From Nereocystis luetkeana (Eukaryota > Sar > Phaeophyceae > Laminariales > Laminariaceae), in assembly GCA_031213475.1 (NCBI GenBank), contig JARUPZ010000002.1, positions 10,209,628-10,273,627 of the forward strand: DNA of 64,000 nucleotides, given 5' to 3'. This document shows positions 22,301-62,263 of the stretch, piece by piece (position 1 is the first letter of the stretch; every line of letters starts with the position of its first letter). Position numbers and translations under genes: made by a program. Below the pieces are notes generated by a model. It did not search any database. It saw nothing but the letters and a program-made list of their open reading frames with translations, and had not been told where the DNA came from.

Positions 22301-24076
22301 CTGCGACGGCGGGGGCGCCGACAAGAGTATTTACTCTGGCGCCTCCCCCGTATGCAGCTCTGAATCTTCTAGACCGTCCTCGCGGAACCGCCTGCTTGGC
22401 ACGAAATTATCTTGCCGTACCAAACCTGAGACCACCTCGACGCGGGGTGGTGCAGAGTGCGGACAGCGACCATGGTGCTGTATAAACCGCTGTGACCATA
22501 CATAGAAAACAAAACACAGCAGGACAGCAGGACACGTCACAACAACTATTTTATAACTGAAGCACGTCGCACACCCCAAAGAAGAAATAAAGTGAAACCT
22601 GCGTACGGATGCATGCATATGTAAATACGTACTTTCACGTACAAAACGTACCAGCACAGAGTCTATACGTTGATAGAGAAGAATTTCAACCGAGGGAGGG
22701 CAGATGCATACGGAGAGAAACAACAGAGTGTACGTATGGTCTCTCTGATTGGTTCAAAGTTGGCCAAAATCAGTTGAAATCTAGACAGAGCAGAAAAAAA
22801 CAGGCATACCTCAAGGGCCTTTTCGAGCCAGAATCAGTTACAATGTCAGCCTGGCCAATAGCAGGGCTCCTGGGGTGTGTTTTGTACTTGTTTTTAGCAT
22901 GTACCAGGTAACTGATTTTGGCCGAAAAGTGGCCAGGTATACCTGATTTTGGCAAAAACACGTTTTTTGTTTTTTTGAAGCCGACCATTTCTCACGGAGT
23001 GAATGAAAAAAAAACTTTATCAACCATGTGCAACCGAGGATCTGCAGCAGGTGCGTGCGCAATGAATACGTTTTGGATCAATACGGCTGGTGTATTTTTC
23101 TCACTGAAAGAACGCCTCGTTACATGCTGTAGATATATGTTTACACGCCTCGTGTATACCTTGGTACATAATAAATAGCCCATCAAAATTGGGTGTCGGA
23201 CTTTCGCCTCTTTTACTGTTTTCTTCCGCATATATGTACCTGGTAGATATACCGGTAGCTTGCTATTATTTTCAAAGGTAGGCTTTAGAGCTCCTCAATT
23301 AAGGAGCCTCGAAACAAAATTCGTGTGATTTTGTATGGAGGCGTGTTACGATAGGGAGTAGATTTTGTACCACTCGGGCGGAAATGTAAGGAACGTTTCG
23401 TCTTGATGTTAATGTCTAAACGATCCTTCTATTCATGACCGGCGGCGGGGGGGGGGCTCTGTAATCCTTTTATGGCAAAAACTGCAGTCTCGTTTTGGGG
23501 ACAAACCACTCAACTTTTAAAGTAGTTTCCACCCAAAACGGGACTGCTGTCCTGAAAAGGGCTACCAGGTATCTATTACAACTGAGGGAAACATGGTGGG
23601 ACAGTCAGTAGCTTCTTGGGCGTATCGTTGCAAAAGGGCATTTTGAGAGGCTTCTTAAGCGTGTTTCGGCACGGCACAGCACACCCAAAAAATTTCCTTC
23701 TCCCCCTCCCCCTTCAGCACCACGAGCGATTTCCACCGTACTCGAGGTAAGTCGCGAGGTGACACGACTATTAATACGCCTATGCATGATATGCGTCCCC
23801 CCCCCCCCCCCCCCCCCCCCCTTCTCCCCTCGTCCGCACACCTCACGGCGTTTCGAGCTTGGTGCGAGCTATGCCCGCCTGGGCTGTGACAACCCGACGT
23901 GCTCCGCCCCGGCATTATCGTCGGGGTGCGAGGGTCTATGATCATACGACTAAGTCCATGCAGGAGAATGAGTCCCCCCCCCTTTCGCCCCTCCCCTCGC
24001 CCTCAACGCACGCACACATGCATGCATGCATCGACCTTGCTGCCTGCGCTTGTGGCAAACCTTAACCTGGCTATAA

Positions 24077-24109
<33 letters not shown>

Positions 24110-24278
24110 CCCGATGCGTGCGCAATCAATCGTCCACAAGCAGGTGTCATTCCATCGGTGTGACCCAGGGTATGCGAAGGGCTTGACGGAGGCTCAGCGT
24201 GACCATTCCAGCGCGGTTGACGGACCCCCGTGCGAATTAGCGTGGAAAGGGGTGTTGCGTGATTACGGAGCGTTGTAG
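6188..24278 (+). CDS. Torsin/ClpB-type AAA+ ATPase, secretory, ten exons (complete)
   Basis: Exons: 6188-6425, 13140-13260, 13914-14075, 14915-15060, 16764-16930, 17906-17955, 19188-19321, 20752-20879, 21626-21817, 24144-24278. The total is 1473 nt, or 490 residues plus stop, and phase agrees at all nine junctions. Visible in order: a signal peptide (about residues 14-31, CLAVVFVALAVLAHA), a short hydrophobic stretch (53-70), a helix typical of the region before the AAA+ core, Walker A GSTGTGKT (135-142), Walker B VVVLFDE (D211, E212), a sensor-1 strand FVLVSDVGAERL with Asp257 where torsins usually have Asn, the segment IPYLPMD as in torsin 'PFLPLE', and GAR (376-378) at the sensor-2 place where torsins carry GCK and Clp proteins GAR. 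The family acts in the ER lumen or nuclear envelope as an ATP-driven remodeller, usually with a membrane activator. ER location is inferred from the signal peptide. A Clp-like relative rather than a true torsin is possible. Introns total about 16.6 kb. Confidence 0.82.
6925..6970 (+). repeat. GGGCCCCCGAA tandem units (torsin intron 1)
   Basis: Four imperfect units in a short GC-rich stretch 6870-6980. Confidence 0.75.
9575..9680. mobile_element. Family A element, copy 2 (torsin intron 1)
   Basis: Left end reads GTCACGGGGGACCATATTAAATTAGG with small changes; right end is perfect. Lies in the first intron of the torsin-like gene among TAACGTTA-rich sequence. Confidence 0.85.
10601..10640 (+). 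repeat. (GTT)n(GCT)n microsatellite (torsin intron 1)
   Basis: About 13 triplets, GTT changing to GCT. Confidence 0.9.
12329..12390 (+). repeat. Family E short dispersed repeat, copy 1
   Basis: CCGGTAATTACCTGGGT...GCATTTGTAGTACTTGGGAG also occurs at 25990-26050. Confidence 0.6.
12842..12928. mobile_element. Family A element, copy 3, left end lost (torsin intron 1)
   Basis: Begins inside the element at ATAGGACCTACGG after a TA-rich stretch; right end GGTCCCCCGTAA intact. Confidence 0.8.
13140..13260 (+). CDS. Torsin-like gene, exon 2
   Basis: Acceptor GTAG at 13136-13139, donor GTGATT at 13261. Encodes residues 81-119 with NDPVKAVTETLQKRI and AIESLSMAVSAW, matching the helical segment that precedes Walker A in torsins and in the second AAA+ domain of ClpB. 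Phase 1 in, phase 2 out. Flanked by palindromic elements in introns 1 and 2. Confidence 0.8.
13472..13576. mobile_element. Family A element, copy 4 (torsin intron 2)
   Basis: 105 bp. Both arms carry the same GTTAAC variant (AGTTAACAGG / CCTGTTAACT) instead of GTAAAT or TTAATA. Shared with copy 5, which marks a subfamily. Confidence 0.85.
13914..14075 (+). CDS. Torsin-like gene, exon 3 (Walker A)
   Basis: Acceptor ACAG at 13910-13913, donor GTGAGG at 14076. Carries LVVALTGSTGTGKTETAWALAE, the P-loop. The Lys-Thr pair is canonical; animal torsins have Lys-Asn at this place. Phase 2 in and out; the split codon completes to Asn174 with exon 4. Confidence 0.88.
14262..14515 (+). mobile_element. 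Family C dispersed repeat, copy 1 (torsin intron 3)
   Basis: Poly-G end, then TTCATGTCATGCATGACC, the block CCCTCGCATCGCTACGATGC, GACCAGGCAGACG, GCGAAGCGCCGTG, and CTTGTAAGGCGG. Diverged. The same order of blocks recurs in all copies. Confidence 0.75.
14915..15060 (+). CDS. Torsin-like gene, exon 4 (Walker B)
   Basis: Acceptor GCAG at 14911-14914, donor GTGAGA at 15061. Encodes IDEYHQKIRRKLGQRLKYC followed by NVVVLFDELQKAAPGTLD. The Asp-Glu of Walker B (211-212) and the following Leu-Gln-Lys-Ala match the AAA+ 'FDEmdK' pattern. Phase 2 in, phase 1 out. Confidence 0.88.
15190..15825 (+). mobile_element. Family C dispersed repeat, copy 2, full length with repeated heads (torsin intron 4)
   Basis: Two extra partial heads (poly-G plus GTACTCG...) precede the main copy at 15288. 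It is one of two copies that extend to the far end, ending ACGGTACCCTGGCTGTCTAA...CAACCGACGCCAACCCAACC. This defines a ~530-bp element. Confidence 0.78.
16120..16224. mobile_element. Family A element, copy 5 (torsin intron 4)
   Basis: 105 bp, GTTAAC subfamily as copy 4, in the opposite orientation. Confidence 0.85.
16349..16380 (+). repeat. Poly-C run of 32
   Basis: Uninterrupted. Similar runs of 15-35 occur at 14257-14280 (G), 18727-18748, 23795-23821, 24545-24562 (G), 33935-33956 (G), 35157-35185, 60632-60652 (G) and 63769-63800. Confidence 0.95.
16764..16930 (+). CDS. Torsin-like gene, exon 5 (sensor 1)
   Basis: Acceptor GCAG at 16760-16763, donor GTGAGT at 16931. The first two bases complete Ser223. 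Encodes LMEAMSEHPRV, a strand SVDTSRVIFVLVSDVGAERL and helix DAVARSFRSRSEVVM. The arrangement matches torsin 'AMFIFLSNAGAERI', with Asp257 at the sensor-1 position. Confidence 0.85.
17229..17312 (+). repeat. TTG-rich microsatellite (torsin intron 5)
   Basis: Degenerate (GTT)n interrupted by GTC and GTA, near a CCT-rich stretch at 17385-17452. Confidence 0.88.
17906..17955 (+). CDS. Torsin-like gene, exon 6 (50-nt microexon)
   Basis: Acceptor GCAG at 17902-17905, donor GTAAGA at 17956. Encodes GVLQSAVKIALDEQWD plus two bases of Arg295. A second in-frame acceptor after TCCAG at 17917 would drop four residues. Fits the short helix before 'R.LIDYFVPFLPLE' in torsins. Phase 0 in, 2 out. Confidence 0.72.
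18620..18748 (-). mobile_element. Family C repeat, copy 3, short, reverse (torsin intron 6)
   Basis: Head only: TGGTCGGTGAAAACCCAACG, GGGTCTATGGCCATACAACT, then poly-C. Confidence 0.72.
19188..19321 (+). CDS. Torsin-like gene, exon 7
   Basis: Acceptor TGCAG ending 19187, donor GTGCGG at 19322. Encodes RFGKVVDKVIPYLPMDPAS and a helix VLVVELKLEMLAETLPGG, the junction of large and small AAA+ subdomains. Ends in phase 1. An alternative donor GTGGGT at 19327 would give a phase-0 exit and would need a different acceptor for exon 8. Confidence 0.8.
19645..19975 (+). repeat. GTT/GGT-rich trinucleotide region (torsin intron 7)
   Basis: Mixed GTT, GGT and GCT triplets over 330 bases. Gives long poly-Gln/Asn/Thr ORFs on the minus strand which are artefacts. 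Confidence 0.9.
20752..20879 (+). CDS. Torsin-like gene, exon 8 (GAR motif)
   Basis: Acceptor TTGAAG ending 20751 (weak pyrimidine tract), donor GTAAAA at 20880. Encodes LRWHLVQPQYVRYSTFRMKP, a turn with TGGGE, then HDLAVYGARDVDK. GAR at 376-378 sits at the sensor-2 position. A shorter exon starting after CCGCAG at 20776 is possible if exon 7 ends in phase 0. Confidence 0.72.
21626..21817 (+). CDS. Torsin-like gene, exon 9
   Basis: Acceptor GACAG ending 21625, donor GTGCGG at 21818, phase 0 at both ends. Encodes an amphipathic helix (RRINGILREHVLEAACSAKE), a low-complexity Gly/Gln insert from a GGGACA repeat, and a strand PFLVDIRYEKSTEQ. The reading frame stays open to 21985, so a read-through ending there is an alternative. 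Confidence 0.65.
21948..21990. repeat. Palindrome built from TATTAATA arms and a TACCTGGTA centre
   Basis: CTATTAATATATTTTTATT, then ATACCTGGTATAA, then ATATATATTAATAG. Links the two over-used words in one hairpin (torsin intron 9). Confidence 0.8.
23462..23562. mobile_element. Family B element, copy 2 (torsin intron 9)
   Basis: Same arms and core, with an insertion of about 5 bases in the left arm and changes in the core. Confidence 0.75.
23841..23982 (-). mobile_element. Family C repeat, copy 4, short, reverse (torsin intron 9)
   Basis: Blocks CCTCACGGCGTTTCGAGC, CAACCCGACGTGCTCC and GCGAGGGTCTATGATCATAC followed by poly-C. A further head fragment with its own poly-C run lies just upstream (23760-23822). 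Confidence 0.72.
24070..24110 (+). repeat. (TA)n microsatellite (torsin intron 9)
   Basis: Ends about 35 bases before the acceptor of torsin exon 10. Confidence 0.85.
24144..24278 (+). CDS. Torsin-like gene, exon 10 (stop)
   Basis: Acceptor AAGCAG ending 24143, stop TAG at 24276-24278. Encodes 44 residues beginning VSFHRCDPGYAKGLTEAQ and ending VLRDYGAL. Joins exon 9 in phase 0. No database comparison was possible for this tail, so its assignment rests on phase, an open frame and protein-like composition. Confidence 0.55.
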   Translation: MSFHRCDPGYAKGLTEAQRDHSSAVDGPPCELAWKGVLRDYGAL

Positions 24279-26051
24279 TAGCGGGACCCCCCCCCCCAAA
24301 TAAGACGCATACCAGGAGTATCCCCCATGTGTTTATGAACCCCTTGTTTGGCTCTGATCACTATCCCGGTGGTAATAGCTGATGGGGCCGAGGCGCGGGC
24401 GGGCGCGGTCGCCGTCTTCCGTCATTTTGTATGTGTGTTGAGGTTGAGTTTTGATTGTTGTGAAGCTTTCCCGTCGAGTGGCTGCATTGCACGCATAGTC
24501 CACGCTTTTGTTTTAGGGTTTTGTATAGAGCTTGTATTTCTTTTGGGGGGGGGGGGGGGGGGAGATCGCGTACAATGCGCGGATGTGTTAAACGAGCTAT
24601 GTCGTCCGATGGTCGTTGCTGGTAGCTAGTGCTGTGTTTTCAGAACGTTGTCGGGTCACGGTGGTGGTGGGTTTGATTGTGGAAATGTTGGAATGTTTTA
24701 CCAGTACATTGCACACAGCCATCGGTTACAACAGTAGCATGATGGCCGTTGAAACCATGGGGACAATATAACATTACCCGGGAAAATGTTCGGCGAAATG
24801 CCTGCCATGGCATGTCTGGCCTCCCTTACGGCAGGCAGGAGCGAGCGCGGCCTGCTGTCAAGTGTCGATGCGCAGCCTCGCTGTATACAAGCAAGGTCCA
24901 AGCGCTGTAGTAGCAGCAATTCGATGAAAATCGACGATAAAGGGGGGGGTGCCTTTCTTCCTCTGCGCGATAAAAATGAAGGGGAGAAGGGGAAGACACC
25001 TGCCTGTGACCACGGCTTGCTCAGAGAGTGTTGAGAGAGTGCACAGAGATGGAAAGGAAACAGCCGATGCTTTCGCGAAAAAAAAAAGAAAAAAAATGGA
25101 AAGTAGTGGTTGGTTGGGCACGGAGAGTGAACTACAGTATTTCTGTCCCACCGCCGTGGGTGCTATCATACCGTAGCTCCAAGCACAGACGGACAATACA
25201 CTTGCTGTCGTGTTTCGGCATGCTACAAGGCCCTCGTGCTGCAATACTTTATGTACCCTAGGTCCATGCCTAGACAGAGAACCACTTGCGGTCTTACATT
25301 ATCCCTGGTACCTGGTACCTACCTGGCATCAGCTTTTATACTACAGGGCCTCTTCCTGTACTATTACGATATACGGTAGCTCCATGCACAGACAGACGGA
25401 CAGGCAGACGGATAGACAGTAGTTGCGTCGTATTCGAATGTCAGCGTGCCACAAGAAGACTGCGAGGCTTTCCTGCACCGGCGTAGGTCGATGCCCCGAC
25501 GACGAAGCACCTGCACCCCGTGTCATGCATGTCGTATACTACACCCGGTACCAGGTAGGGCCTCTCCTGCGCTCATGATGCCTTGGCCTGCCTTAGTATG
25601 TCGCCTGGGTGGAGCAAGTAAAATGTTGGAAACAAGGGTGATGAGAAGGCAAATTCGTAACGCATACTATCGTAGCTCTCGCTGTTAAATACATAGGAAC
25701 TCGCGCAGCAGGGTATATGTGTATACTTCTAAGTATATACCAGGTATGTATACAGTTGTAGAGCAGGGCAAGGGTTGCCCTGCTGTTCCCTAGGTGTTGC
25801 CCGACATAGATATTTGCTGGGTAAATAATTTAACTTGAAGATATGATGCTGCTGTTTGTTGACGCTATTTATTGTTCCTTGCATGGGTTTTCAGAAGAAG
25901 TGATAACAGCAGGAGATACCAGGCATACAGTAGACGCCGACCACCCGACCCGAACTGTTATGATACTGCTTTGTATGAGGTTGAAAGCCCGGTAATTACC
26001 TGGGTTCTGGCACTGGGAACGTATTTGTAGTACTTGGAAGGCGTATCATAG
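24279..26051. other. Intergenic, no supported gene
   Basis: Holds a poly-G run (24545-24562), many TACCAGGTA words (25300-25330, 25550, 25738), a CAGACGGA/CAGGCAGA run (25388-25420) and Family E copy 2. ORFs are short. Confidence 0.55.
25990..26050 (+). repeat. Family E short dispersed repeat, copy 2
   Basis: Matches 12329-12390 with few changes, and ends just where the retroelement region begins. Confidence 0.6.
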
Positions 26052-26153
26052 GTGGAAAACCAGGGGTTTTCCAGAGAGGCACGAGCGTGGTCCCAGTCTC
26101 CGTCGTGCACGAAAGGAATAAAGTGGCTCTTCTATCTCTAAGCGAACATCAAC

Positions 26154-26699
26154 GTGAGCACCAACGAGTGCCGGCTTAATAGGCCGACCTGTCCAGGGAT
26201 ACAAAGTGTCCCGCTCTCCGTGATCTTAACGAGTGGCGTCGACGACAGGACTCACCGACCCCCGGGGCACCAACACCGGGGAGTCCCCGACGGCTCTGGG
26301 GCCCGTGACCACCCCTACCGCCGCGATGACGCCCGGGACCGTCGGCGTCCAAGCACGGCGGGAGCCTCGACAGGCCAAGACGGCAAGGCCCGCCGCGGAC
26401 AGGGTTCAGACCATGGCAGGAGCACGTTTCTGCGAAACGGGGCTGGTCGGCGGCGGAACCGGGGCCAGGGGAAGGACAGCTCGAGCGACGGGCGAAATTG
26501 GAGCTACCGCCCGCGGGGAGACGCGTCTCAGGCCAACTCTTCGAGGTCCTCCACGGACGGCAGCGGCGAAAGCCCCGTTCCCGAAGTCACCACCGGCTCC
26601 AAGAGGCAAGTGGTTCCCTCGTTGGCGGAAGTTGCTTCCTCCGCCGCGCTTCTTGGTCGCCTGACCATGTCCGAGGACCGCCATGCCCGTGTCGTCTAA
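26154..26699 (+). CDS. Possible leader ORF of the retroelement, Arg/Gly/Ser rich
   Basis: 181-codon ORF in the frame two bases ahead of gag, overlapping it by 17 bases. Composition is Arg, Gly, Ser, Asp with no motif I know. It may be an RNA-binding leader or simply an open GC-rich 5' UTR. The gag frame is also open here (26233-26664), which weakens the case for coding. Confidence 0.3.
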   Translation: MSTNECRLNRPTCPGIQSVPLSVILTSGVDDRTHRPPGHQHRGVPDGSGARDHPYRRDDARDRRRPSTAGASTGQDGKARRGQGSDHGRSTFLRNGAGRRRNRGQGKDSSSDGRNWSYRPRGDASQANSSRSSTDGSGESPVPEVTTGSKRQVVPSLAEVASSAALLGRLTMSEDRHARVV

Positions 26700-28242
26700 C
26701 CTTGCCCACGCTCGCACGGCGGCGATCGACTCTGCCGCCGCCGCCGCCGCGAAAAAGCACACCGCAGACGTCCAACTGGCGTACAAACACCTGGGACTGA
26801 AGGATATTTCGCGCATTTCTGTTCTACCTTTTCCCTCCTCGAGCAACCCTTCTGACGCCGCGCAGCAACTAACTCGTTCGGTTAAGGCCTCCACGTCTGA
26901 TATTCTCATCATGTGCAACGATGGTAGCCACGAAGGCCTCAGTTCTACCGATTGGATCCCCGGTTGGGAGTACTCCCTCAAGAAATCCTTCGCGCGCGCC
27001 ATCGCACCTGACAGGCCCACGACCGCCCCCCTCACTACCTTGATGGATGATTTTTTTGGGCAGGTGTCGCGCGCCCTCGCAGCTGGATCGACGGGACCGG
27101 AAGCGTTCACGCTCCTCCTGAGGCTGCTGAGCAACCACTTCGATCGCACCGATACGGGGGTCAGCTGCACCAAGTTGCATAATTTTGGCGTACCTAACGG
27201 GACCCCCTTTTGCGATTTTAGCCGCGCTTTTCGTGGAGTGGTGTCGGCAGCGACGGGGACTGAGCGTGTTTTGGCTCCGGGGGTGGAGGTTGTTTTGGAG
27301 GTTGTTTTGATGGCAGTGAACGAGCAGTTCCCCAGCTTGATGCCCACGCTGTACCCGGGAGTTTTGGCTACGGTGTCGAGGCCGTTTGGTACTTTGGACG
27401 CCATGTGGCTGGCTTTTGAGACTCTCGCGAATAATAAGACACCTGCCATCAACGGCGAAAAATATTTTTATTTGCCTGCTTCTTCGACGAGTGTGCGGTC
27501 ATCCGCCCCGTCGGGGCCCCGGCCCGCTGGTAATGATCACGGCCAGGGCCGGACGCTTCCCCAGTCGCCTGTTTGGCAGACGGAGTCGCGCAATAATCCG
27601 CTGGTGATGAACGTCCACAAATCCATCCCTGACTGCCTCGACCCGTGGCTTGACACCGCTTCCAACTGCTGGCCCCTAGAAGAACACCACTATGCTGAAG
27701 TTCACGCTGTTTGCATGTCCATCCAGACCGAGGACCCCCCTCTCTGGAGTGGTCTACTTTCATCGTCCGCCCGCGCGGCCGCCCTCAGCAAAAACCGAGG
27801 CCGCTGTTTGAACTGCCACGAAGACTCACACTCCCTCAGACAGTGTAGGTACCCCTTTCAAAACCTCAGCGGTATTCTCAACCCCGACCTCGGAACTCTC
27901 GGCGACGACGGAGCGGCGTTCCGTCGTTGGCAAGAACGCATGACCCGACACCGCCGCGAAAATAACTCACGGCCGAACAAGAACCACCACAAGAAAAACA
28001 GGCGACGTTCAGGCCATTCGCGTGGGCAGCATCACGGCCAGGGCCACAGACAAGGTGACGGCTACAGCACACACGCGGAACGAGGGCACCAAAAGTCTAT
28101 CTCCAGCTACCACGGTGGTGGTTCGACCACCTCTGCCTCTTCCACCGCGGCTCCCGCGTCGGGGGTTCGCTACGGTGCCTCGCATAATTCGGACGGTAAG
28201 TCCAACGGACGCCATCCGGGCACCTTCCGCGCTGGTAACTGA
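26683..28242 (+). CDS. Retroelement Gag: capsid region and CCHC zinc knuckle
   Basis: 519 codons, intact. The N-terminal half (residues 1-280) is mainly helical and has the look of a capsid. A zinc knuckle C-X2-C-X4-H-X4-C follows at C375, C378, H383, C388 (nt 27805-27846). The tail (about 430-519) is rich in His, Arg, Gly and Ser, as expected for nucleic-acid binding. The stop TGA at 28240 is followed by CAG, and the pol reading frame continues in the same frame. Confidence 0.82.
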   Translation: MPVSSNLAHARTAAIDSAAAAAAKKHTADVQLAYKHLGLKDISRISVLPFPSSSNPSDAAQQLTRSVKASTSDILIMCNDGSHEGLSSTDWIPGWEYSLKKSFARAIAPDRPTTAPLTTLMDDFFGQVSRALAAGSTGPEAFTLLLRLLSNHFDRTDTGVSCTKLHNFGVPNGTPFCDFSRAFRGVVSAATGTERVLAPGVEVVLEVVLMAVNEQFPSLMPTLYPGVLATVSRPFGTLDAMWLAFETLANNKTPAINGEKYFYLPASSTSVRSSAPSGPRPAGNDHGQGRTLPQSPVWQTESRNNPLVMNVHKSIPDCLDPWLDTASNCWPLEEHHYAEVHAVCMSIQTEDPPLWSGLLSSSARAAALSKNRGRCLNCHEDSHSLRQCRYPFQNLSGILNPDLGTLGDDGAAFRRWQERMTRHRRENNSRPNKNHHKKNRRRSGHSRGQHHGQGHRQGDGYSTHAERGHQKSISSYHGGGSTTSASSTAAPASGVRYGASHNSDGKSNGRHPGTFRAGN

Positions 28243-29013
28243 CAGGTCGACGGCGGTTCGGCTCCTCCTGCCCGCCCGCCGCCAGCATTGCCGGGAGAAG
28301 ATACATTGATTTCACAAGATACACGCGTCCCAGGCTCGCTCAGCACTCAGCGTCGCCCTGCGCCGCCCCCCTCCCGCGCGTTGCTCCGTACTTCGGACCG
28401 ACGCGGCGACTCAGCTCCACCGGTTCTACCGGGGAGTCCCCGGGCGTCTTCGCCGACGTCGGGAGCCCGCGCCTCGAACGCCGCTCCCCTCACCCTGGGC
28501 ACGAGAGCAGGCGAGATAAACGTCCCTCTCCCGAACCACGCACCGCGCGGCATCACGCGTGTCGCGCCGTCGCGTCGTTCTTTTCAGCGAGGGTGTCCCC
28601 CTCTTTCACCTCCCGGCCATGCGGTGGCGGTCGGTTTGAGGTGCGGGAAGGCAAACACTGAAACCCCGAGATCTCGGCTGTAGCTCGACTCGGCGTTTCC
28701 TCGCAATAACGGTGGCCGTTCAATCATTTTTCCTATCAAGGAAGAGTCGACAAGATTAGCTACCTCGTTCCCCTTCCCCACCAGGTCTACAGGACGGAAG
28801 CCCTCTCCGGTGGACCCTTTGTTGCCCCCCACCGGAGCACCGTTCTTGAAGTCGTCTACAGGGTCTGCAGGCCCTCTTTCGTCTTCGCGCACGCCACTCC
28901 ACGTGCGCCGCGCTCCTTCGGCTCCTGTGGAGCAGGAAAAACCTGGTACTGCCCGTCGAGCCAGTGGTGACTCCACAGCCTCCGGTCAGATCAACCGGAC
29001 AGCATACGGTTAA
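28243..29013 (+). pseudogene. Pro/Ser/Arg-rich linker between gag and NADAR, two in-frame stops
   Basis: Same frame as gag and NADAR. Low-complexity Pro, Ser, Arg, Thr over about 250 codons with TAG at 28681-28683 and TAA at 29011-29013. No motif. Consistent with a polyprotein spacer that has picked up stops; alternatively it could be non-coding. Confidence 0.5.
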
Positions 29014-30291
29014 ATTCGGAAGAATCGCAGCTCTCGTCAAGCAGAACGGGCTCAGAGCCCCCCTGCCCCCTTTGGTCCAGAACAGAGATCATCGGGCGCA
29101 GTAAGAGAACCTTCTGGCGATTTTTTGCCTACGGGCAATGGTGACACTGAGCCAGCATACGTGGAACCGGACTCGCCTCGTGCACCAGGGGCTCAGTGTT
29201 CTCAGAGAAGCACACTCCCCCAAACACACACCGCAACAGCGGCCACCGACGACTCGACATCTTCGGTCTTTGACCCTACTCTCGAGTATTCAACGGAGCG
29301 GGTGGTACTTTTCTGGCAGCCCCCCTCCTATTTTTCGCAGTGGTCCCCCTCGGTTTTTGTCATTGACGGGGTGACATATTCCTGCGCGGAGCAGTATATG
29401 ATGGCTGAAAAGGCTCGCCTTTTTCTGGACCACGACACAGCGGAGCGGATTATGGCCTCGCCAGACCCTCGCAAACAGAAACGCCTCGGTCGAGGCGTGC
29501 ATAACTTCGACTGCGCTACCTGGGACCGCGTTCGGGAAGACGCCGTCCTTGCTGGTTCCTTTGCCAAATTCACGCAGAATCCGGTCATGAAGCAGCACCT
29601 ATTGAGCACTGGCAACATTTTTTTGGCTGAAGCCAGCCCTTTTGACTCCGTGTGGGGCATCGGTCTCCGGGCAGATGACCCCGAGGCCCAAGACCCCTCT
29701 CGGTGGCGTGGCAGAAATTTGCTCGGGAAAGCTCTTTCCGCCGTTCGCGACACCCTCCGCCCAAGTGAGGCCGGGTTGGCACCCCCCGCCTCTTCTCATC
29801 AATTTTGCACTCGAACCACGACTGACAGAATACATGAGAATTCCCCAGCGCCGCCTGGCCCTTTGGCCGTGGCCCGCGCTTGCCTAGGTCCTCCCTTGGA
29901 GTTTTCGACCTATTTTTTTGACGCGCCGGCTGATCACAGCCCCGAGGTTTTGGCTGTCGCACCTGGTGTTGACCCCTCCCTCGCGCTGCCAGAACACGGC
30001 CCCTGCCTCGTCGAGGGCACCATTACCCTCGATGACGCCTCTTTTACAACCAAAATCGCGATCCACAGCGGAGCTGGCGTTCTTGCACCTTTTGGCTGCG
30101 TGGCGCTTCTTGACACTGACTGGCTCCCCACAAAACTTCATTCGGCAAGATATTTTGGATCGCATGCTCACGGTTGGTGCGGCATCCATCGCGTGCGAGG
30201 AGAAATGCACCCCTCGTTCCTGGGGGGGTTTTGGCTAATCAACTCCTCTAAAAACATCGACGAGAGTGCGCCTGAGCGTCCATTATTTTAG
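29014..30291 (+). pseudogene. Retroelement Pol fragment: NADAR domain and start of retropepsin
   Basis: Open from 29014; first Met at 29125. NADAR (YbiA family, formerly DUF1768) spans about residues 60-212 counted from that Met (nt 29302-29760). Matching features: VLFWQPPSYFSQWSPSVF, the CAEQYMMAEKA helix with Glu89 and Lys96, FAKFTQNP, L.STGN, SPFDSVWGIG with Asp174 and Trp177, and W.GRNLLGKAL. Known NADAR proteins act on ADP-ribose adducts, including removal from guanine in DarT-linked systems. The aspartic-protease part starts near 30003; its active site is hit by a tandem ACTG (30115-30118 and 30119-30122), after which the frame shifts. Confidence 0.8.
29302..29760 (+). other. NADAR domain (about 153 residues)
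   Basis: Complete over the length usual for the family, without stop or frameshift, although the flanking polyprotein is broken in at least four places. The conserved Glu, Lys, Asp and Trp positions named in the Pol entry are all present. This is the only part of pol without a visible lesion, apart from the short reverse-transcriptase piece. Confidence 0.82.
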
Positions 30292-30916
30292 AGAAAATGA
30301 GCCTACGTGCTCCCTCGCAGTTTGGGCCTGCGTGGTCCCCCCCGCAGTGATGCAGCGTGCAGTACTGCTGGGACGTGACAGCTGGATGCGTTTTAATAGC
30401 CGCTCCTACCGCTCTCTCCCACCTCGGCCGTCAGACAATCGCGTTTTTGGCGAGTCGGAGTTACTCCACCACACCCCGACAGGCATGTCCGTGTACGCCA
30501 TCGACCCCGCCGCTTCGGGTGGAGGCTTCCATCTCCGCGACGAGGGCGCGGCAGGCGTCACCCTGTATGACGATCCTCAACTCCTTGCGGTCAATTTGGT
30601 TCGAAGCGATGACTCCCCGGCACTCACTGGGCACTACTTGGTCGACATGATACCCCAGTCCGACCTGCCCTCGGTTGGGGAGCACTTCGTCGCCTCCGGG
30701 CGACAGGTTCTTCCCCTCGTTGGAGTGGCGGCCCTCGAGCCTGGAGATATCCTCGGCGTCGCCCACGCCCCACTGCTGAGCGTTCCACTGGACGTTTTGC
30801 ATCAGGCCAACCGAGCCCCCAGCCCTCCGTCGGGACTATCTGAGGTGGCTCCGGTCTCGCCAGTTCCAACTTCCCCCCCTCGCAGCTCCAACCTCGCCCT
30901 CGCCTGCACTGCTTGA
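30115..30916 (+). pseudogene. Retropepsin remnant (frame-shifted)
   Basis: After the ACTG duplication the protease continues in the next frame (NFIRQDILDRMLTVGAA..., then stop TAA at 30236-30238, then RVRLSVHYF...AVLLGRDSW at 30363-30383). The D-T-G motif region followed by 'NFI' and a later 'LLGRD' pattern is typical of Ty3/gypsy proteases. The frame changes again within a C run near 30873-30879. Confidence 0.65.
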
Positions 30917-31393
30917 GCGTTTGAGCCCAGAACAGCGCGTTTCGTTCCTGGGCGTCTGGGCACGTTTGCCGCTGCATCTGCGGGAGGTGGCTTTTGACCT
31001 TCACGGCACGGACTGGACCCCTGAGGCCATCGAACAACTGGGGGATGTTCTCTGCGATTTTCCGGACGTTTTCTCGAAGTCCAAATCTGATTTTGGTTCC
31101 TGCTCGTTGATGCCTTTCGTGATTTCGATCCCGGAAGGAAGCCCTCCTGTCACGTCCAGGCCGCACCGCATCAACCCCATCCTGGCCAAGGAAGTGGAGG
31201 CCATCTTGGATCAGTATCTAGCGGCGGGTGGTCTGATCCAGCACTCGATCTCTCCGTACTCGGGCCCGCTGGTGGTCATCCCGAAGAAGTCGGGAGGCGT
31301 TCGGATCACAGTGAACTACAAGAAACTCAACCAGATCAGCAACCTCAGCCAGCTGCCTATTCCTAACCCGAACCCGAACGTTATCGGGTGACT
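30917..31393 (+). pseudogene. Reverse transcriptase N-terminal fragment (Ty3/gypsy type)
   Basis: The ORF from 30921 reads PHRINPILAKEVEAILDQYL, GLIQHSISPYSGPLVVIPKK and GGVRITVNYKKLNQIS. This is the classical opening of gypsy reverse transcriptase (fingers, 'D.R.LN' replaced by NYKKLN). It stops after LPIPNPNPNVIG at 31391; the YxDD motif is missing. Confidence 0.85.
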
Positions 31394-31799
31394 TGTGCTT
31401 GGATGCAAAATAGGTACCGCGGGTTGTAGCTATGTATGGAGAAGTCAGTAGTATCACTGTTGTCTCGTTTTGACCTGTCTGTGTAGAAGGGTGGGTTGTC
31501 TGTCGTCCTTTGCTGTTGTTGTAGGCCGTTGCAGTCGTGGGCCGTTAAACCCTTTGTTTGCAGTCGACCCTTTTTTTTCTTCGATTTGTTTTTGTCTCCC
31601 TTCAGCCTTTCTTCCTGGGGATTTTTATGAGCGTTTGACGACGAAACTCTTCCTTCATGCCGGACGTTGTCGGACGGGAAATTGCTGGCCTCATAATATG
31701 GACACTATGGACACTCAATTGTGCTGTACTTTTGTACTTCCAACACAAGACAGCACTACACGTACAACACCCTACACGAAATTTACAACATACACGTGG
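31394..31799. other. Unassigned stretch after the retroelement breakpoint
   Basis: No repeat or coding similarity seen. Begins after TAACCCGAACCCGAAC. Confidence 0.5.
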
Positions 31800-32790
31800 G
31801 TGTGCACGATGCTTACGCCCAATTTTGCGATTTTTTTGTTTATCGTTTTTACTCGTTTTTTGCGATTATCTCCCTCAGTTTGAATTATTTCCCTTTTTTT
31901 TTGGGAGTTTTGGTCGATCGATTTTTGCTTTTTTTCGCCTGTTTTTTTTCGTTTTCGTATGTTTTTCGCATTTTTGCCGTTTCTTAACGTTATTCCGTAG
32001 AGTCTCGTCCTGTTTTTGTGATTGCTCATATGCGAGCTTGCGTACGCACGTATGGTCCGGAATAAATTATAGAAGGGGACGCACGTAAAGCACCGCTTGC
32101 TTGTTCGTTTTCGAAGAGTTCACGGCGTTTACCCCATTTTGGCGTTTTTTTCATCATTTTCATCCGTTTTTCGCGATTTTCTCGCTCAGTTTTGTTTTTT
32201 GTCCATTTTTTTGTTGGAGTTATGGTCGATCATTTTTTTCGATTTTTTTTGCTTCTTTTTAGTTTATGCTGTTTTTGCCGATGCTTGACGTTTTTCCTCG
32301 GTTTCGTACGTTTTGGGTATTTATGTCAATCGTGAGATATACTGTTCAGAAATATGAGCCACGCTGGACTATTCGTATGAGTTGTCAAAGAGGACGATCG
32401 TAGAACACAGCTTGCGTGTTCGTTTTCGAAGAATATACGATGTTTATTACCCTTTTTTTGCGCGTTTTCATCGTTTTTATCCGTTTTTCGCGAATATCTC
32501 GCTCAATTTCGATTGTTTTCCTCTCTTTGGGAGTGTTGGTCGATCATTTTTTTCGATTTTTTTGTGCATTTTTGTGCATTTTTGCCAACTCCTAACGTTT
32601 TCCCTCGGTTTCGTCCTTTTTTGGTATTTCTCTCATTCGTGAGGTATTTGTTCAGAAATAAGCTACGCTTGACTACGAATTCGTACCTATTAATAGTATG
32701 CTCGTATGAATACGAGTACGAGAAGGCGCTTATATTCATGACTGCGGTTTTTGTTCGTAATTATAAGCTACACCAGACATTTCTTCTTTA
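31800..32790 (+). repeat. Tandem array, ~315-bp unit, three copies
   Basis: The anchor CGTTTTTCGCGATTTTCTCG recurs at about 31850, 32165 and 32482. Each unit also holds GGTCGATC...TTTTTTCGATT, CCTCGGTTTCGT-like and TTCGTTTTCGAAGA blocks. T-rich on the plus strand. Short ORFs here are not protein-like. Confidence 0.8.
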
Positions 32791-33130
32791 CCAGAAAAAG
32801 GTACACTGAATGACAGAAAACGCCATCTAACTTGGGTTTGGTAAACACTGATCACCTCGTTTTATTTTTTCCTACAGCAGTAGAATGCCAAAAATGCACT
32901 GGTGAACGTTTTTTTTGTCAATTTTGTGACTTGGACGGACATGGATTTTCACCAGAAAACGGTATATACCTTGACAGAGAAAGTAACCTAACTTGGGTTC
33001 GATGTACCCTGATTTTTTGGTGTTCATGATTTGTACCGTAAAATGGCAACACATCACTGGTGAACCTTTTTTTTGGCATTTTGTCCAGTCAGTGGGACAG
33101 CTTCTTATTTTTGCTTCTAGATACCCTAGG
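32791..33130 (+). repeat. Direct duplication, ~160-bp unit
   Basis: CTAACTTGGGTT at about 32828 and 32988, CACTGGTGAAC at about 32898 and 33055, each followed by a T run. Confidence 0.7.
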
Positions 33131-33555
33131 TAAACCCAAGGGAACTGTCATCAACTCGTGTGCGGCCGGACACGGCGCACGTCGGACGCTTCAGTAAGAG
33201 CTCGAAAGAGGGGGTCTCTATTTTTTGTGTGCCGTCAAAATTATAACTTCGCCTCTTAAAAATCCCGAGTTTGCTAATTGGTGTCTTGTTCTTTACGTAG
33301 GCAAAACTCCGAACTATCTGGACGGGAATATAAGGACGGCTTGGGCCTTTCTGCTCTTAACTCCTTTACGTACAGAAGTATCGCATCGTACAGTTACACG
33401 CATAAACCTACTGTGAAATTGGCTCAATTTTTTCAAGTGCCTTGTCCACGGTGGGAGTGCAGCCCTTGAGGCCTACCGGGGGGTTTGCACGGCGGCTATT
33501 GTGGACCATCAGAGGGGCAACATTGACCGCGCAAAAAAAAAGGTACGAGTAACGA

Positions 33556-33760
33556 TTCCTGCAACGGCCACTGCGCGATTGGGCGAATCGTGATACAACG
33601 GTTGGTGTCGTCCGAGTTACAAAGGTTGAAAGGTATCACGGTCGCACGGCACGGGCGCAACATGATATTACCCATACCCGTGCTTCTGCTGGGCGCTCAC
33701 GCCGCTGCTCGTAGAATGCTGACAACACTAAACGCTATCGTTGGGCTGGTCGCTCCTGCG
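33556..33760 (+). repeat. Family D dispersed repeat, copy 1
   Basis: Shares GGTTGGTGTCGTCCGAGTTA, TCGCACGGCACGGGC and CTGCTGGGCGCTCA with 57947-58110, in the same order. Confidence 0.65.
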
Positions 33761-34548
33761 GAATCTATCTCAAGGTTCCAGCGTTCCTCTTGACCTCCTC
33801 GTGTGAGCGTCCAACATATCACAACCAAAATCAGTGCACTGGGGCAACGAGTACGGCAACGCATATCGTTGGCGCTGAAACCCTACAGCAAATACGCAAA
33901 CAGTGTACCTGGTATATAGTGGTATCATCAATAGGGGGGGGGGGGGGGGGGGGGGAGAGCAAGCCGGTTTTTTGCTATGTAGGCGTGTACATACCCCACT
34001 TTTCGCCGAGCTTGCAGAAAAGAAGTGCGCTTTGTTCACCCTCGCGGCAAGCTGTTCTTCGCAGTTGACAAAAAGGTTGTCCGTCGGTGGCTGGTGCTAT
34101 ACAATGAATACGACCTACCAGTACTACAGCAGTGCCGGTATACGCCAGCCACCAATAGCGGCACTATACGGGCAACCCGCACACTGCCATACTCCCATCT
34201 GTGCCAAGCGGTTCCACAGGCAACATAGCGGGCAACCGGCACTAAAAGAGGGACCACTATTGTACTGTAAAATAGTGCCGTCGTCGGTTAATACAGCAGT
34301 TTCACAGCGAAAGCCGAGGCACAGAAAAAAAAAACACTGTAGAAAAACGGTTATATAAACTCATGTACCAGCACCAGCACACGACCCGAAGCCCCTAGTC
34401 CAAATGCGTGGGAATACAGCTACACATAGCAGTGGCGTCCTTTCTTGCCTCCTTCGAGGGACCCAGGAAAGGCGTGTTCTCTTTCTCAGGGACCGGACGG
34501 CCTTAGGCAGATAGATCCCTGTTCCCGTGCTTACAACCGAAGACTTTC

Positions 34549-34576
34549 ACGCACGCACGCACGCACGCACGCACGC
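34549..34576 (+). repeat. (CACG)7 microsatellite and 24-bp duplication
   Basis: Followed at 34577-34630 by two copies of CGGGCTGTCTATCGACCTCT plus CGCT. Confidence 0.85.
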
Positions 34577-35157
34577 GGTCGGGCTGTCTATCGACCTCTC
34601 GCTCGGGCTGTCTATCGACCTCTCGCTCGCCAGCTTGCCCATATGCCCATACGACTGTGGTTGAACGCAGAGGGGTATAGAGGGCAATAATTTGACCCTA
34701 CTCGAGCCAGGCCCGATATCTCAGCTCGTGAGGGAATTTTAATTTTCACCCCCCTAAACCCATCTTCAAGCGAGCCTCTCCCGCTCGTGGCAGTGTGCGC
34801 CTCACCCACGTGCTCAAGGAACTTCGGTACACCACGTAAAGTTCCGCGCTGGACGGAATAAAAGAAAACAGCAAACGTTGGCGTTGCTATACGTTTTATG
34901 AAAGCGAAACATCACCCGGTCGACGTAAAGTCAACGAACTGAGATGGTCTATTTCCGGACCACATCCCGAGTGCACATTTTGATCCTGCACATAGTGATT
35001 TCCTTGCCCATGCCTACAGGTAGTACGCACGCGCCAAGACACAGTCTGTCAATATTGCACGTCAAGATTGTTCTTGCTCCAAGGTTAACCAGCCCCCCGC
35101 CAACAACGTTCTGTTAGGTACAGTTTTTGCCTCATACGTTAGTTGCTCCATCCCGCG

Positions 35158-35188
<31 letters not shown>

Positions 35189-35323
35189 CCCCCCGAACAA
35201 ACAAGCCGCCAAGCCGCCAACATGTACAAAACCCGCCCAGAGAAGCCTCGCTTTCGTTTCCTCCCTTTTTAAGCGCGCCGTTCGACCCCGAACTCCCCCC
35301 CACTTCCCCACCCCAGAGCTAAG

Positions 35324-35719
35324 TCACAGGTCGGGATCCTCCTCGTCGTCGTTATTCCCAGCTCCTCCTGCCTTTTGCAGCGGCGCCATCCTCGCACCAA
35401 CTCCAGACGACCACCCCGCCGAACCTGCCCCGCCCCTGACCGCGCTGCCGCCGCCGCTGCCGCTGCCACCGTGCGAGAACCCGATAAAATCCGAGGGAGA
35501 AGCGAACGATAAGCCGGCTGCTGCTGAGCTCCTGCTGCTGCTGCCGCCGCCGCCGCCGCTTCCGCCGCCCGCTGATAGTCCGGCGCCGCCTCTCCAGATG
35601 GGCTCGTTCGAGGCTTCTGATTCGGAGTCGGAGTCGTCCCCCCCCAAGGCCGCGAAAGGGTTGCCCTTGCGCTTGCGTCCGGCAGAGCGAACGGGGCGAG
35701 CCGGTGGCGCATCTGGCGC
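35324..35719 (-). CDS. Unrecognised gene, terminal exon
   Basis: 131 codons and TGA. The acceptor TGATCTCAG follows a (CT)22 microsatellite at 35804-35761. Low-complexity Gly/Ser/Ala coding with an acidic end. The opposite strand reads Pro-rich and has no comparable splice or start signals, so I take the minus strand. Confidence 0.62.
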   Translation of the reverse strand, partial: APDAPPARPVRSAGRKRKGNPFAALGGDDSDSESEASNEPIWRGGAGLSAGGGSGGGGGSSSRSSAAAGLSFASPSDFIGFSHGGSGSGGGSAVRGGAGSAGWSSGVGARMAPLQKAGGAGNNDDEEDPDL

Positions 35720-35756
35720 CTGAGATCAGATAGAGACAAAGAGACAGAAAGAGAGA

Positions 35757-35805
<49 letters not shown>

Positions 35806-38800
35806 ACGGCAAGAAGAGCAGATGAAACGTGCCGTTGCATGGAGGGCCAGCAGGTGCGCGCGGGGGAGACGGGGGAGACGTAAAAGCCCGTGGTTTGAGC
35901 AAGTCGCCAGCCAGTGCATGAAGGGAGCAAGCAACTTCGGCCGCTATACGAGGGCAAAAGATGGGGCGAGGGTAGTCATGCATGCGCACGACATAGCGAG
36001 GGGTGCGCTAAATAAGCCCTCCTCTGCCGCGGTGTTCTGTGCGCGCTTCGGGTTAGTATTCGTTCGAGCTCTCCTCAGCAATGGGTAGAGTCTTGCTGTC
36101 TAAACTCCAGAAATGGCGCTCGGCCGAAGCGAAAACACGGAAACACGGCATAGGACCCACGAAAAAGCTGAATTCCGCCCCCGCTCCATTTGCCCCCCCC
36201 CGTTGCTCCGTCTCGAAAGGGATGCGTGGTCAAATGGCAAAGGCAAGCAACAAAATGAGTACGCCCCCGCCACCCCCCCTGCCAGAACGATCGTATCACG
36301 TTGTTTGTGGTAAGGCACCCAAGAGGCAGTTACATAGCACCCCCATTGTTGTCTCTGGGAGTGGCCACACCGGAACTTAAAATTGCTGATTAAAGCTTAA
36401 GCTTGTCATCCATATGCACGCCCGCCTCACAAGTGGTTCTGAGTAGGATGCCGCTCACGCTCCATGCGGCCGAACACCTCATGGCGCTTCGCGCGTGGTG
36501 CAAGCAGTGTCTGCCTGGTCGGGGAAAACTCGACGTGCTCCGTCCCGGGATTGTTCGTAGGGATGCGAGGGTCTATGGTCATACAACTACGGCCATGCAT
36601 GATATCGAGTACATACCCCCCCCCCAACGGCTAGCGGTCGAGTTATACGAGTATCATTTTTGAGTGGGTAGAACCCTAACTCCACACGAGGGGGATGATT
36701 GTATCACGCAGCGTATATATGGTAAGGCACCCACGAGGCAGTCGCATGGTGAAACCATTGCTGTCTCTGGAAGTGGCCAGACCAGAAAAAACAATTCATT
36801 GACGAAGTCATCCTTATACAAGAAAAGCCGCCTCATAAGCGGTATTAGTAGGATGCAGCTCACCCTTCATGCGACTCGCCAGACACCTCACGGCGCTTCG
36901 CGCTTGGTGCAAGCAATGTCTGCCTGGCCGGTGAAAACAGGACATGCTCCGTCCCGGCATTGTAGGGATGCGAGGGTCTACGGCCATACGGCTACGGCCA
37001 TGCATATGACAATGAGTACACCCCCCCCCCAGACCCTGCCAAAAGCACCGACCACGCCTCAAGAGTCGAAACCCGATCGTAGACGCAGCATGTCAGCCCC
37101 TGGAAAAAATATGCGAGTGAGGATATCGCCCCACCAGCAGAACCCTCCGCAAAACGCGCTACATGAATGATACGTGTATCCTCCCATCCGCCACCACGAG
37201 TAGTCCTACTCACCGGCGCGACCACAGCGCTCAAGCAGCCCTTCACGCCACAGCAACTACTGGGCACCACCCACCGGCAGCTGCAGAGCACTACAAGCTC
37301 TACTAAGGTGTAAATCACGTGGGTCGACGCAGGAGCGTGACACATGCACAGGTGGATGACAAACGCGAAATTGAAGCCCGCTTAATCCTTTTATTTGGGG
37401 ACAAACTACTTAAAAATTGAGTGGATTGTCCCCAAAATGAGACTGCAGCTCTAAAACGGTTAAAGGACGACAACAGCAAGGGACCCTTTTCTACCCCCCG
37501 CACTCACTGGATCGTCGCTGATGCTCTGCAGCAGGGCTTCGACCATCCGGGCGGAGCTCGATGCGCGCATGGATGTCATAGATTCCGCACTGCCGTGTCC
37601 GATCAGGATTGGGTGGGGGGGGGTCCATATCACGACCGGGGAGGCGGTAGGGGTGGGGGGGGGGGTCGTTATATAGCGGGGCAATCGCCTGAAAAACCTT
37701 CAGTTAGTCGACTTAATCCTTTTAGTACTGCAGTGCACACGTACGTAAATTCGACTCTCATTGCTAGTAGTTCGTCCCCAAAACGGGAGAGCAGTCCTAA
37801 ATGGGTTAAAACGCCAGCGGTTTATGCTATGCTTCTTTTTCACGATAACGTTCGCGCAATCCAAGCTGAAAACACCCCAAAAGTGTAACGGCGATCAATC
37901 TGGCCAACCGATGGTTTCGGGGGTGGGGTGGGGGTGGGGTGGGGGTGGGGTGGGGGGGGGGGGGGGGGGGTATGAATCGGTGACCAATATAATGTGTGCT
38001 CAACAGCAGAGAGGGCTTTCGGTCCACATCCACAGTTTTCTGTTGCCTCGTACGTACCCTGCTCAAGTCCGCCACCACTGCAGTCCTACCGCCCGACCGC
38101 TACTCGCCAATCTGAAGGAGTACGTCAACGTCTTTTGTAACAAATATTCATAGTATTACGGGGGACCATAGTTAATAGGACCTACGGTATACATAAAAAA
38201 CCTATGTATTTAACCATTTTTACTAACAATATTTGGTCCTATTAACTATGGTCCCCCGTAATAGTAGTGTTCCTACACTATCGTACGTACCACCACAAGC
38301 TATTCGGCGACTGGACCCCCAATGCTTAAGGCGGGGCCACTGTTGCTACGTGTGAGTATTCCATCCCAAGTATATACTGCTGCATGCATACGTAGCGGTA
38401 TCGCCCCTCCTCTGCCGACGCGTCGCTTCCATGGCGGACTGCTGTTCAACCTTTTATGACGGGTCTGCTGAATGCTACCAACACGACTATTAATAGAGGC
38501 ACAGAGACTAACCAGGTGAGATGTCAGCAGTGCTGGTGCGACAGGGCGGAGGAGAACGGCAATACATACAAGAGCAAAACAAAAACCGTACCAGGTACTA
38601 CATACAACACGTGCTTAGACTGACCACTTGCTATCAACAGGGCAAAAAGCCAACCTGTACGATGCTACATAATTCCAACCGGAATTGCCCCCAAACACGT
38701 CTAGTAGGAGCAGTTCCAAGGTGTTGCCCCCTTTACACTACGTACTGCTACCGCAAAAAAAAAAAAAAAGAGGACCCAAAATATTTCGTAATGCCAAGCA

Positions 38801-55140: not shown

Positions 55141-55210
55141 CTGCGCGAAGGACACATGGGTACACCAACAGAAACGCGCGGACAGGCGGGCAGGCGAGCG
55201 GACAGGCGGG

Positions 55211-55253
<43 letters not shown>

Positions 55254-61200: not shown

Positions 61201-62263
61201 TTTACACTTGAACCGTCCCTACATTTTCGGACAGAGTGGTATTTTACAGCAGCCCTTTCTACACGGCATTCGTAGTGTTTGCAAAGAAATCGATCGGAAC
61301 AAATCTGTTTTTGGCTGATTGTGGACTGTTTTCCCCTAAAAAAATAACCCCCAGACACTTGGAACATTTTCTAAGAGTTAACCAACCCAACCCAACAATA
61401 ATCACTGCTGTAGGTTAAAAGTGGCAACCTCAGGAGGATACGAACGTTTCTTTGTGGTTTCGGGTAATTTTGCTTACGTACGTACAAGTAGGGAGCAGAC
61501 AGGCCACAAGCAACTCAGACAAGCTGGTTTCAACGAAGACTCTTCGCACAGAGCACCCTTTAGCGCCGGCTGCTGCCCGCTAATATAGTGCCTGTGGAAT
61601 CGCTTGCGACAGATGGGGTTAACCAAGCGTGCGGAAGTGTGCTGGCTGGCTGGCGCACATCGGCGCTATGCGCAGAGGGACCAGCTACGGCATGCACATT
61701 TGTTTGTGCGATTCGCGAAAAAAAGGAAAAGAGAAAACCGAACCAAACCAAACCAAACCCACTCAAGTTGACGACATCAGCAGCAGCAGTTACGTACGAA
61801 TATCCCGGTGCGCGGGGTCAGTTCTCAGCGACTGCTGTAGTATCTAACCAGAGGAAAAACATACACCCGTACGAGAAGCGTGCTACGGGATAGCACCGAG
61901 ATTTTCCCCGAAATCTGGAATGTACGAGAAAAAAAAATGAAAAGCGCAAAACCAGAGGAAGAGTCCCAAAGCCTCTTAAGGTATACCTGGTACTTCGTAT
62001 GAATGATATCGCAAAACGAAAATGGCGTCCCAACGATATTGTTTCGGACCCCCGGTCAGATAGAAATATTTTGGATAAAAAACGCCATCTATCATGATAC
62101 CTTATGTAGCAAGACAAAAGCTTCACGTAGGTTTCCACACATTCCAAACCATCGACATCCCTGACCCCCCGTCATGAACTGTTCGGCAGGATCTGTGGAA
62201 TTAAGAGATCCAATAGCAAGTAGATCGCGCGGCTTTTCCGACTCCCAACCGGAAGCATGAGCC

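Follow-up and report, generated by a model that had tools for sequence, protein, structure and literature searches.

A YbiA-type NADAR domain in the Pol region of a Ty3/Gypsy retrotransposon family in the brown alga Nereocystis luetkeana

A 64,000-nucleotide stretch of the 465-Mb Nereocystis luetkeana genome (C2:10,209,628-10,273,627, C2 being contig JARUPZ010000002.1; the whole stretch is called the window below) contains the remains of a long terminal repeat (LTR) retrotransposon that encodes a NADAR domain between Gag and the protease region (Table 1). The domain lies in frame 29,014-30,291 (425 amino acids [aa]), residues 100 to 249 of which match PF08719 in a profile search with a score of 171.6 bits against a cut-off of 35.1, covering positions 2 to 163 of the 163-position profile. 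Sequence matches to PDB were found with 8bau (NADAR, E = 8e-15) and 2b3w (YbiA, E = 9e-8). The ADP-ribose-site residues of the P. nicotianae enzyme (PMC11543638; papers are cited by PMC number for the portions of their text that were available) were transferred through the 8bau alignment, and 8bau itself appears to be this enzyme, from residue spacing that fits with an offset of two. These residues are present in the window NADAR, so that both the conserved Glu, Lys, Asp, and Trp positions and the NADAR assignment itself, which an earlier note had read from the window sequence, stand. The position equivalent to E125 holds Glu (codon 29,629-29,631), not Asp or His, which places the domain in the YbiA subfamily. 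With Glu at this class position, and with Gag and the protease-reverse transcriptase (RT) region as neighbors, it falls outside the BC4488 subfamily of DarT1-linked antitoxins.

Table 1. Features of the retrotransposon copy in the window (positions count from the first letter of the window)
Feature	Position	Strand	Basis
Element as preserved	26,241-31,364	+	blastn versus relatives
Gag frame, 525 aa, TGA stop 28,240-28,242	26,665-28,242	+	ORF list
Zinc knuckle CX2CX4HX4C within Gag	27,805-27,846	+	motif
N-terminal part of Pol, gag stop to NADAR, in gag's frame	28,243-29,301	+	ORF list
NADAR domain (YbiA type), intact	29,311-29,760	+	PF08719, E 2e-50
Equivalents of P. nicotianae E43, K50, K75	codon starts 29,389, 29,410, 29,479	+	8bau alignment
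Equivalents of P. nicotianae R79, W89, R93	codon starts 29,491, 29,521, 29,533	+	8bau alignment
Equivalents of P. nicotianae E125, D130, W133	codon starts 29,629, 29,644, 29,653	+	8bau alignment
Protease region; DTGS motif altered, about 30,106	29,761-30,288	+	comparison with L026, L011
Protease-RT connecting region, other frames after breaks	30,239-31,388	+	frames 30,239-30,916, 30,780-31,391
RT start, first 29 residues of match, then cut off	31,278-31,364	+	tblastn

By blastn, the window copy is 95.9% identical to relative L026 over 26,241-31,364, 94.7% to L025 over 27,449-31,364, and 96.3% to L027 over 28,270-31,364, and the DNA homology of the connecting region to L026 ends at 31,364. The copy is apparently truncated at both ends, with the 5' limit based on L026 alone. 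A Pfam search found no gag match in the Gag frame. The NADAR had been described as lying in the same frame as gag, which is correct for the frame, but the reading is not continuous: besides the Gag stop (28,240-28,242), two in-frame stops (28,681-28,683 and 29,011-29,013) interrupt the N-terminal part of Pol, a part that is open in L025 and L026. Its described place directly ahead of a retropepsin holds for the family, in which a DTGS motif is present in L026 and L011 (in L026 about 115 aa past the NADAR), but not cleanly for the window copy, in which the motif is altered; no Pfam protease match was found in this region in the window or in relatives, and the protease was recognized by the DTGS motif only. 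Window and L026 agree at 4,918 of 5,115 positions and differ by six indels, five of them frame-breaking and none inside the NADAR. The earlier note had stressed a lesion-free NADAR in a broken pol. The domain is indeed intact, but with five frame-breaking indels and two extra stops, a 459-bp stretch in 5.1 kb escapes by chance about half the time, so that intactness in this single copy is little evidence of selection and was rejected as a sign of it. With its truncated ends and several frame breaks, the window copy is dead. A repeat search of 24,000-37,000 found no LTR-like pair around it, and no LTR was found within 20 relatives (L009-L028), which are 8- to 9-kb pieces that stop short of the element ends. 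T-rich units with a spacing of ∼307 to 317 bp lie at 31,839-32,647, just 3' of the broken end of the element.

The fusion was also sought across the genome and in protein databases. For NADAR, 150 of 778 candidates were scored and all 150 exceeded the Pfam cut-off; for RT, with the L026 RT as the query, 150 of 1,282 candidates were scored. A listed NADAR precedes at least 86 of the 150 RT matches on the same strand, at distances of 1,926 to 2,127 bp (median, 2,043.5 bp), and does so for at least 42 of the 45 RT matches whose frames reach 1,900 aa; both counts are lower bounds, because the other 64 RT matches were compared only with the 150 listed NADARs. Some RT matches have identical scores, one set on the small contigs C893, C1069, C1201, C1313, C1511, and C13 and a second on C987, C1041, C1184, C1795, and C10 (all genome G000); these may be assembly duplicates that inflate copy counts. 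The order of domains in the relatives is NADAR, DTGS protease motif, RT, RNase H, and integrase. RVT_1, RT_RNaseH, and Integrase_H2C2 score above their cut-offs in the L011 and L026 frames and rve below, which gives the order of a Ty3/Gypsy element and upholds the proposal of a NADAR built into a Ty3/Gypsy polyprotein. PF08719 and PF00078 occur together in 11 of 64 database proteins, including three with the name Ectocarpus sp. CCAP 1310/34, and a NADAR at the N terminus of Pol, before protease and RT, is also the arrangement of the Ectocarpus NADAR-Gypsy lineage. We conclude that the window element is almost certainly a decayed copy of a Ty3/Gypsy family in which Pol starts with a YbiA-type NADAR.

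The database protein P0232 was considered as a NADAR-less relative and set aside, since its similarity to the other Pol proteins compared starts only at about residue 450 and it looks like a composite gene model. In the long proteins P0226, P0228, and P0230, one of them named clostridial, NADAR is joined to PF03747 and, in isolated instances, to PF10021 or PF01661, giving combined ADP-ribose-processing proteins.

Forty-five copies were compared (40, four more that were fetched, and the window copy), comprising family A (16 copies), family B (24, window included), and family C (5); they were chosen from the best NADAR scores, a choice that biases conservation upward. Stops interrupt the NADAR in 3 of 16 A, 10 of 24 B (window included), and none of 5 C copies. 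Amino acid identity between families is 43 to 58% for NADAR and 73 to 79% for RT (three A, four B, and three C copies). Along Pol, as compared among one A copy, one C copy, and pieces of one B copy, the divergence of NADAR equals or slightly exceeds that of the protease region and is clearly greater than that of RT and RNase H. Of the site residues, K50 and W89 are kept in all 45 copies, E43, R79, R93, and D130 in 44, W133 in 43, and E125 in 40, while K75, which makes no ligand contact, is variable (kept in 37). The 52 database proteins with a NADAR match (P0169-P0221) have K50 and W133 in 51 cases, R79, W89, and D130 in 50, E125 in 48, and E43 in 40 (with 11 gaps), gaps being scored as misses. 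Three family B copies (L030, L046, and L052) have open NADAR frames with Lys replacing the catalytic Glu, possibly a change shared by a subfamily and not decay. Upstream of the NADAR, a check for stop-codon readthrough found AAC-TGA-CAR in 18 of 21 copies (15/16 in A, 3/4 in B, 0/1 in C), and the NADAR is in frame with the TGA in only 8 of these 18.

Across families A, B, and C, codon models gave a ratio of nonsynonymous to synonymous substitution (omega) of 0.246 for NADAR (12 copies; 2ΔlnL = 108.8 versus omega = 1) and 0.078 for RT (10 copies; 2ΔlnL = 298.4 versus omega = 1), where the omega = 1 null was the best of three kappas on an unchanged tree. NADAR is under purifying selection in the long term, across families, and more weakly than RT. 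In 22 rows, NADAR and RT distances are correlated (Mantel r = 0.63, with 0 of 2,000 permutations as high), in part through near-copies within families, and the supported splits of the two trees, compared by eye, agree. This is what co-inheritance of NADAR and RT predicts. Both the selection and the tree comparison had been suggested in the earlier note. Family A is an exception in branch length: the NADAR-tree branch leading to A measures 0.74, or 0.85 when the part across the midpoint root is added, and the RT-tree branch 0.12, about a sevenfold difference. Faster evolution or replacement of the NADAR would explain this, and both fit. The branch to the P0178 group is similar in the two trees (0.51 for NADAR; 0.52, or 0.57, for RT). 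The Ectocarpus proteins P0220 and P0221 contain both domains; their NADARs cluster with family C, and their RTs are placed next to A, B, and C.

Among the best 120 of 815 matches, the nearest named bacterial NADARs to the window family are from Nannocystis (up to 60% identity), and unnamed metagenomic NADARs reach 62%; related bacterial loci are also found in other Myxococcota and Planctomycetota. On the eukaryotic side, Ectocarpus and Pylaiella are the nearest named relatives. Tree rows were hand-picked from larger sets. In the best-sampled careful tree, of 47 rows, families B and C fall into one clade (support 98/96) together with element-type database proteins and four short proteins with NADAR (209 to 248 aa): P0006, and P0019, P0022, and P0035, which are named as Ectocarpus or Pylaiella. 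To judge by their size and by the absence of RT, these short proteins are apparently stand-alone host genes. NADARs of Myxococcota and Planctomycetota join the 98/96 clade in a larger one, supported at 97/90 in an earlier tree and 92/81 in the 47-row tree, and we infer that the NADAR was acquired from a bacterial-type gene resembling those of these phyla. Family A and P0189 are placed apart (100/97). In the 47-row tree, a clade of all elements plus the short algal proteins is not rejected (p = 0.377), and one of all elements without them has p = 0.052. Two earlier trees with few element sequences gave approximately unbiased p values (p-AU) of 0.0675 and 0.082 for A, B, and C as one clade, and p = 0.043 and 0.127 with the short algal proteins added; the later sampling has 12 more element-type proteins, and P0189 was grouped with A after its tree position was known. 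The short algal proteins sit among element sequences, but a clade limited to B, C, and element-type proteins is likewise not rejected (p = 0.234), so that transfer may have run in either direction. A second acquisition of NADAR in family A is possible. A single bacterial uptake behind both the short algal and the element NADARs, followed by traffic between host and element, is a scenario that we find conceivable but doubtful; in it, the algal genes would be domesticated Pol domains, or elements would have captured a host gene, in A perhaps twice.

Two other sources for the domain were considered. An origin in a toxin-antitoxin system near the closest bacteria is unsupported: no ADP-ribosyltransferase is encoded among 10 neighboring frames, picked by script, at six bacterial loci (L053, L055, L057, L059, L062, and L065). 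Six of the 10 frames have Pfam matches (second NADAR, helicase, dehydrogenase, transposase, DUF4340, and cyclic-nucleotide-binding), and no Pfam match was found in the other four. A viral source is likewise unsupported, as none of 20 viral-contig NADARs (of 27) placed in a quick tree fell inside the element clades, and when viral contigs were scanned by pattern for the element RT, none of 32 candidate stretches was confirmed. The 27 viral contigs (L133-L159) are 16 to 395 kb long, with NADARs 41 to 56% identical to that of the window. In Nannocystis pusilla DSM 53165, two NADAR genes stand in tandem (L055:3277-4525). The short algal proteins P0019, P0022, and P0035 start with a Cys/His-rich stretch, PGCSxPCx followed by HxYCxxxHA (P0019 and P0022) or a similar motif (P0035), which is possibly a small zinc-binding module; P0022 and P0035 have no additional Pfam match beyond one that is subthreshold.

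The whole of these observations is best explained by a putative YbiA-type ADP-ribose hydrolase that is carried with Pol and acts in the particle, an explanation to which we give close to, but short of, even confidence. The NADAR would be delivered with Pol into the particle and would there hydrolyze N-glycosidic ADP-ribose linkages. The likeliest substrate would be ADP-ribosylated guanine on element RNA or single-stranded cDNA, from which removal of ADP-ribose would leave a readable template; alternatively, the substrate could be small ADP-ribose molecules or RNA ends. The counter-defense that the earlier note proposed, through removal of host ADP-ribosylation from the element or tuning of NAD metabolism, is a hypothetical role. 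Judged by sequence, the element NADAR is probably an active hydrolase, and de-ADP-ribosylation of nucleic acids may be the role for which it was selected, a proposal we make tentatively and with some doubt. Guanine-ADP-ribose is hydrolyzed by NADARs of both subfamilies, including a YbiA-type enzyme of an oomycete (PMC11543638, PMC11125620), and a PARP homologue has been reported in Ectocarpus siliculosus (PMC4245714). Several points weigh against an active hydrolase of this kind, beginning with the choice of copies by NADAR score noted above. Within families, NADAR omega does not differ from 1 at 5% in A (0.52; 2ΔlnL = 2.75) or C (0.54; 3.5) and is 0.61 in B (2ΔlnL = 7.5), next to RT values of 0.21 in A and 0.42 in B; pairwise counts for A agree (NADAR, 0.66; RT, 0.40), and the single RT pair in C gave 1.87 from too few sites to judge. 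The catalytic E125 is lost in 5 of 24 B copies (four Lys and one Gly), of which three have open NADAR frames and two of those three are also open in RT. R93 is kept in 12 of the 52 database proteins and is Cys in 35. We know of no biochemical test of any retrotransposon NADAR, and the matches listed from the open-licence PMC literature contained none. Finally, a NADAR that hydrolyzes its substrate in vitro need not protect cells (PMC11125620).

The same weak within-family omega and lost E125, together with the substitution of R93 in 39 of the 51 database proteins that have a letter there, are what would be expected had the NADAR turned into a noncatalytic binding or spacer module. We consider this quite improbable, since K50, W89, D130, W133, and E43 are nearly invariant though family representatives are only 43 to 58% identical, and the across-family omega is 0.25. 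The conserved site residues would serve equally if the NADAR processed the RNA intermediate of the element or a by-product of RNA repair or RNA ends, with no countermeasure against defense. Such RNA processing has been put forward for Ectocarpus (PMC12477816), and NADAR has been tied to RNA repair and found in RNA-virus polyproteins (PMC9503650), but the available text of these papers names no NADAR reaction on RNA ends and the characterized activity is hydrolysis of base-linked ADP-ribose; we regard it as unlikely, if worth serious attention. Destruction of small ADP-ribose- or NAD-derived signals of host immunity, or a part in NAD or riboflavin metabolism, would accord with the argument that viral NADARs, above all those of phage, target mainly small ADP-ribose derivatives (PMC9503650) and with the action of Escherichia coli YbiA on riboflavin intermediates (PMC11543638). 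Delivery in a Pol polyprotein seems poorly suited to depleting a soluble signal, however, and macromolecular targets are favored for the NADARs of eukaryotic RNA viruses (PMC9503650), which makes this role improbable. There is practically no chance that a host NADAR gene was inserted by accident in one copy or that the match is spurious. Chance insertion is refuted by the fixed NADAR-RT offset across copies (at least 86 of 150), by the NADAR shared among B copies, and by the same fusion in database proteins; the related copies were picked by NADAR, but the RT-led search agrees. A spurious match is refuted by the Pfam E value of 2e-50 and the PDB matches.

The rest of the window contains imperfect direct repeats (78 to 87%) at 36,308-36,554 and 36,720-36,963, ∼410 bp apart, tandem repeats of GATAAG type (59,195-59,595), CAGG (55,183-55,314), and GTT (19,644-19,966), and a perfect 24-bp unit in 3.3 copies (61,149-61,227). 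An Rfam scan of the window gave no match at gathering scores, and a Pfam scan of ten other long window frames gave none.

The fusion is real, well conserved, and already known as a kind. This analysis extends it to a second genome, in which three families occur, and contributes measurements of constraint, a bacterial neighborhood for the NADAR, and a link to short algal NADARs. To our knowledge, no role has been settled for NADAR enzymes that lie outside toxin-antitoxin operons, and a multicopy lineage that keeps its NADAR through deep divergence and has relatives in host genomes is a concrete study system. It raises the question of whether eukaryotes ADP-ribosylate the nucleic acids of mobile elements, and it would add another enzyme to the accessory domains known from LTR retrotransposons. 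If the short algal and element NADARs do share one origin, host and transposon would use one ADP-ribose hydrolase on opposing sides.

Among known systems, the DarT1-NADAR and YarT-YbiA pairs have the fold family and ADP-ribose site in common with the element NADAR (PMC11543638, PMC11125620), and the YarT-linked YbiA also has the YbiA-type Glu; the element NADAR differs in lying in Gag-Pol with no adjacent toxin gene and in not belonging to the BC4488 (Asp) subfamily. Animal positive-strand RNA viruses likewise have NADAR inside a replicative polyprotein, but with an RNA-dependent RNA polymerase, a comparison made by description only (PMC9503650). The Tx1 LINEs of Crassostrea gigas are also retrotransposons with NADAR-like domains; by description, they are set apart as non-LTR elements in which the domain is divergent and lies in ORF1, not Pol (PMC12477816). 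Other accessory domains of retrotransposons are listed in PMC6338049, and a stress-induced NADAR protein, Esi0017_0056, is described from Ectocarpus (PMC7922944). The earlier note had asked whether such fusions are described in other stramenopile elements, and they are: a NADAR-Gypsy fusion was published in 2025 for all families of one Gypsy lineage of Ectocarpus, with horizontal transfer and RNA processing suggested (PMC12477816), and the matches listed from the open-licence PMC literature include no further paper that describes NADAR in LTR retrotransposons. In the Ectocarpus sp. 7 lineage (e.g., Gypsy-12_Ec32), whose 200-Mb genome compares with 465 Mb here, a C-terminal chromodomain is reported (PMC12477816), whereas no Pfam chromodomain was found in three C-terminal pieces here, all of which are cut or end early. 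As in N. luetkeana, bacterial NADARs are the main outside matches of that lineage (PMC12477816), and the Ectocarpus proteins P0219-P0221 point to probable kinship in RT between the two.
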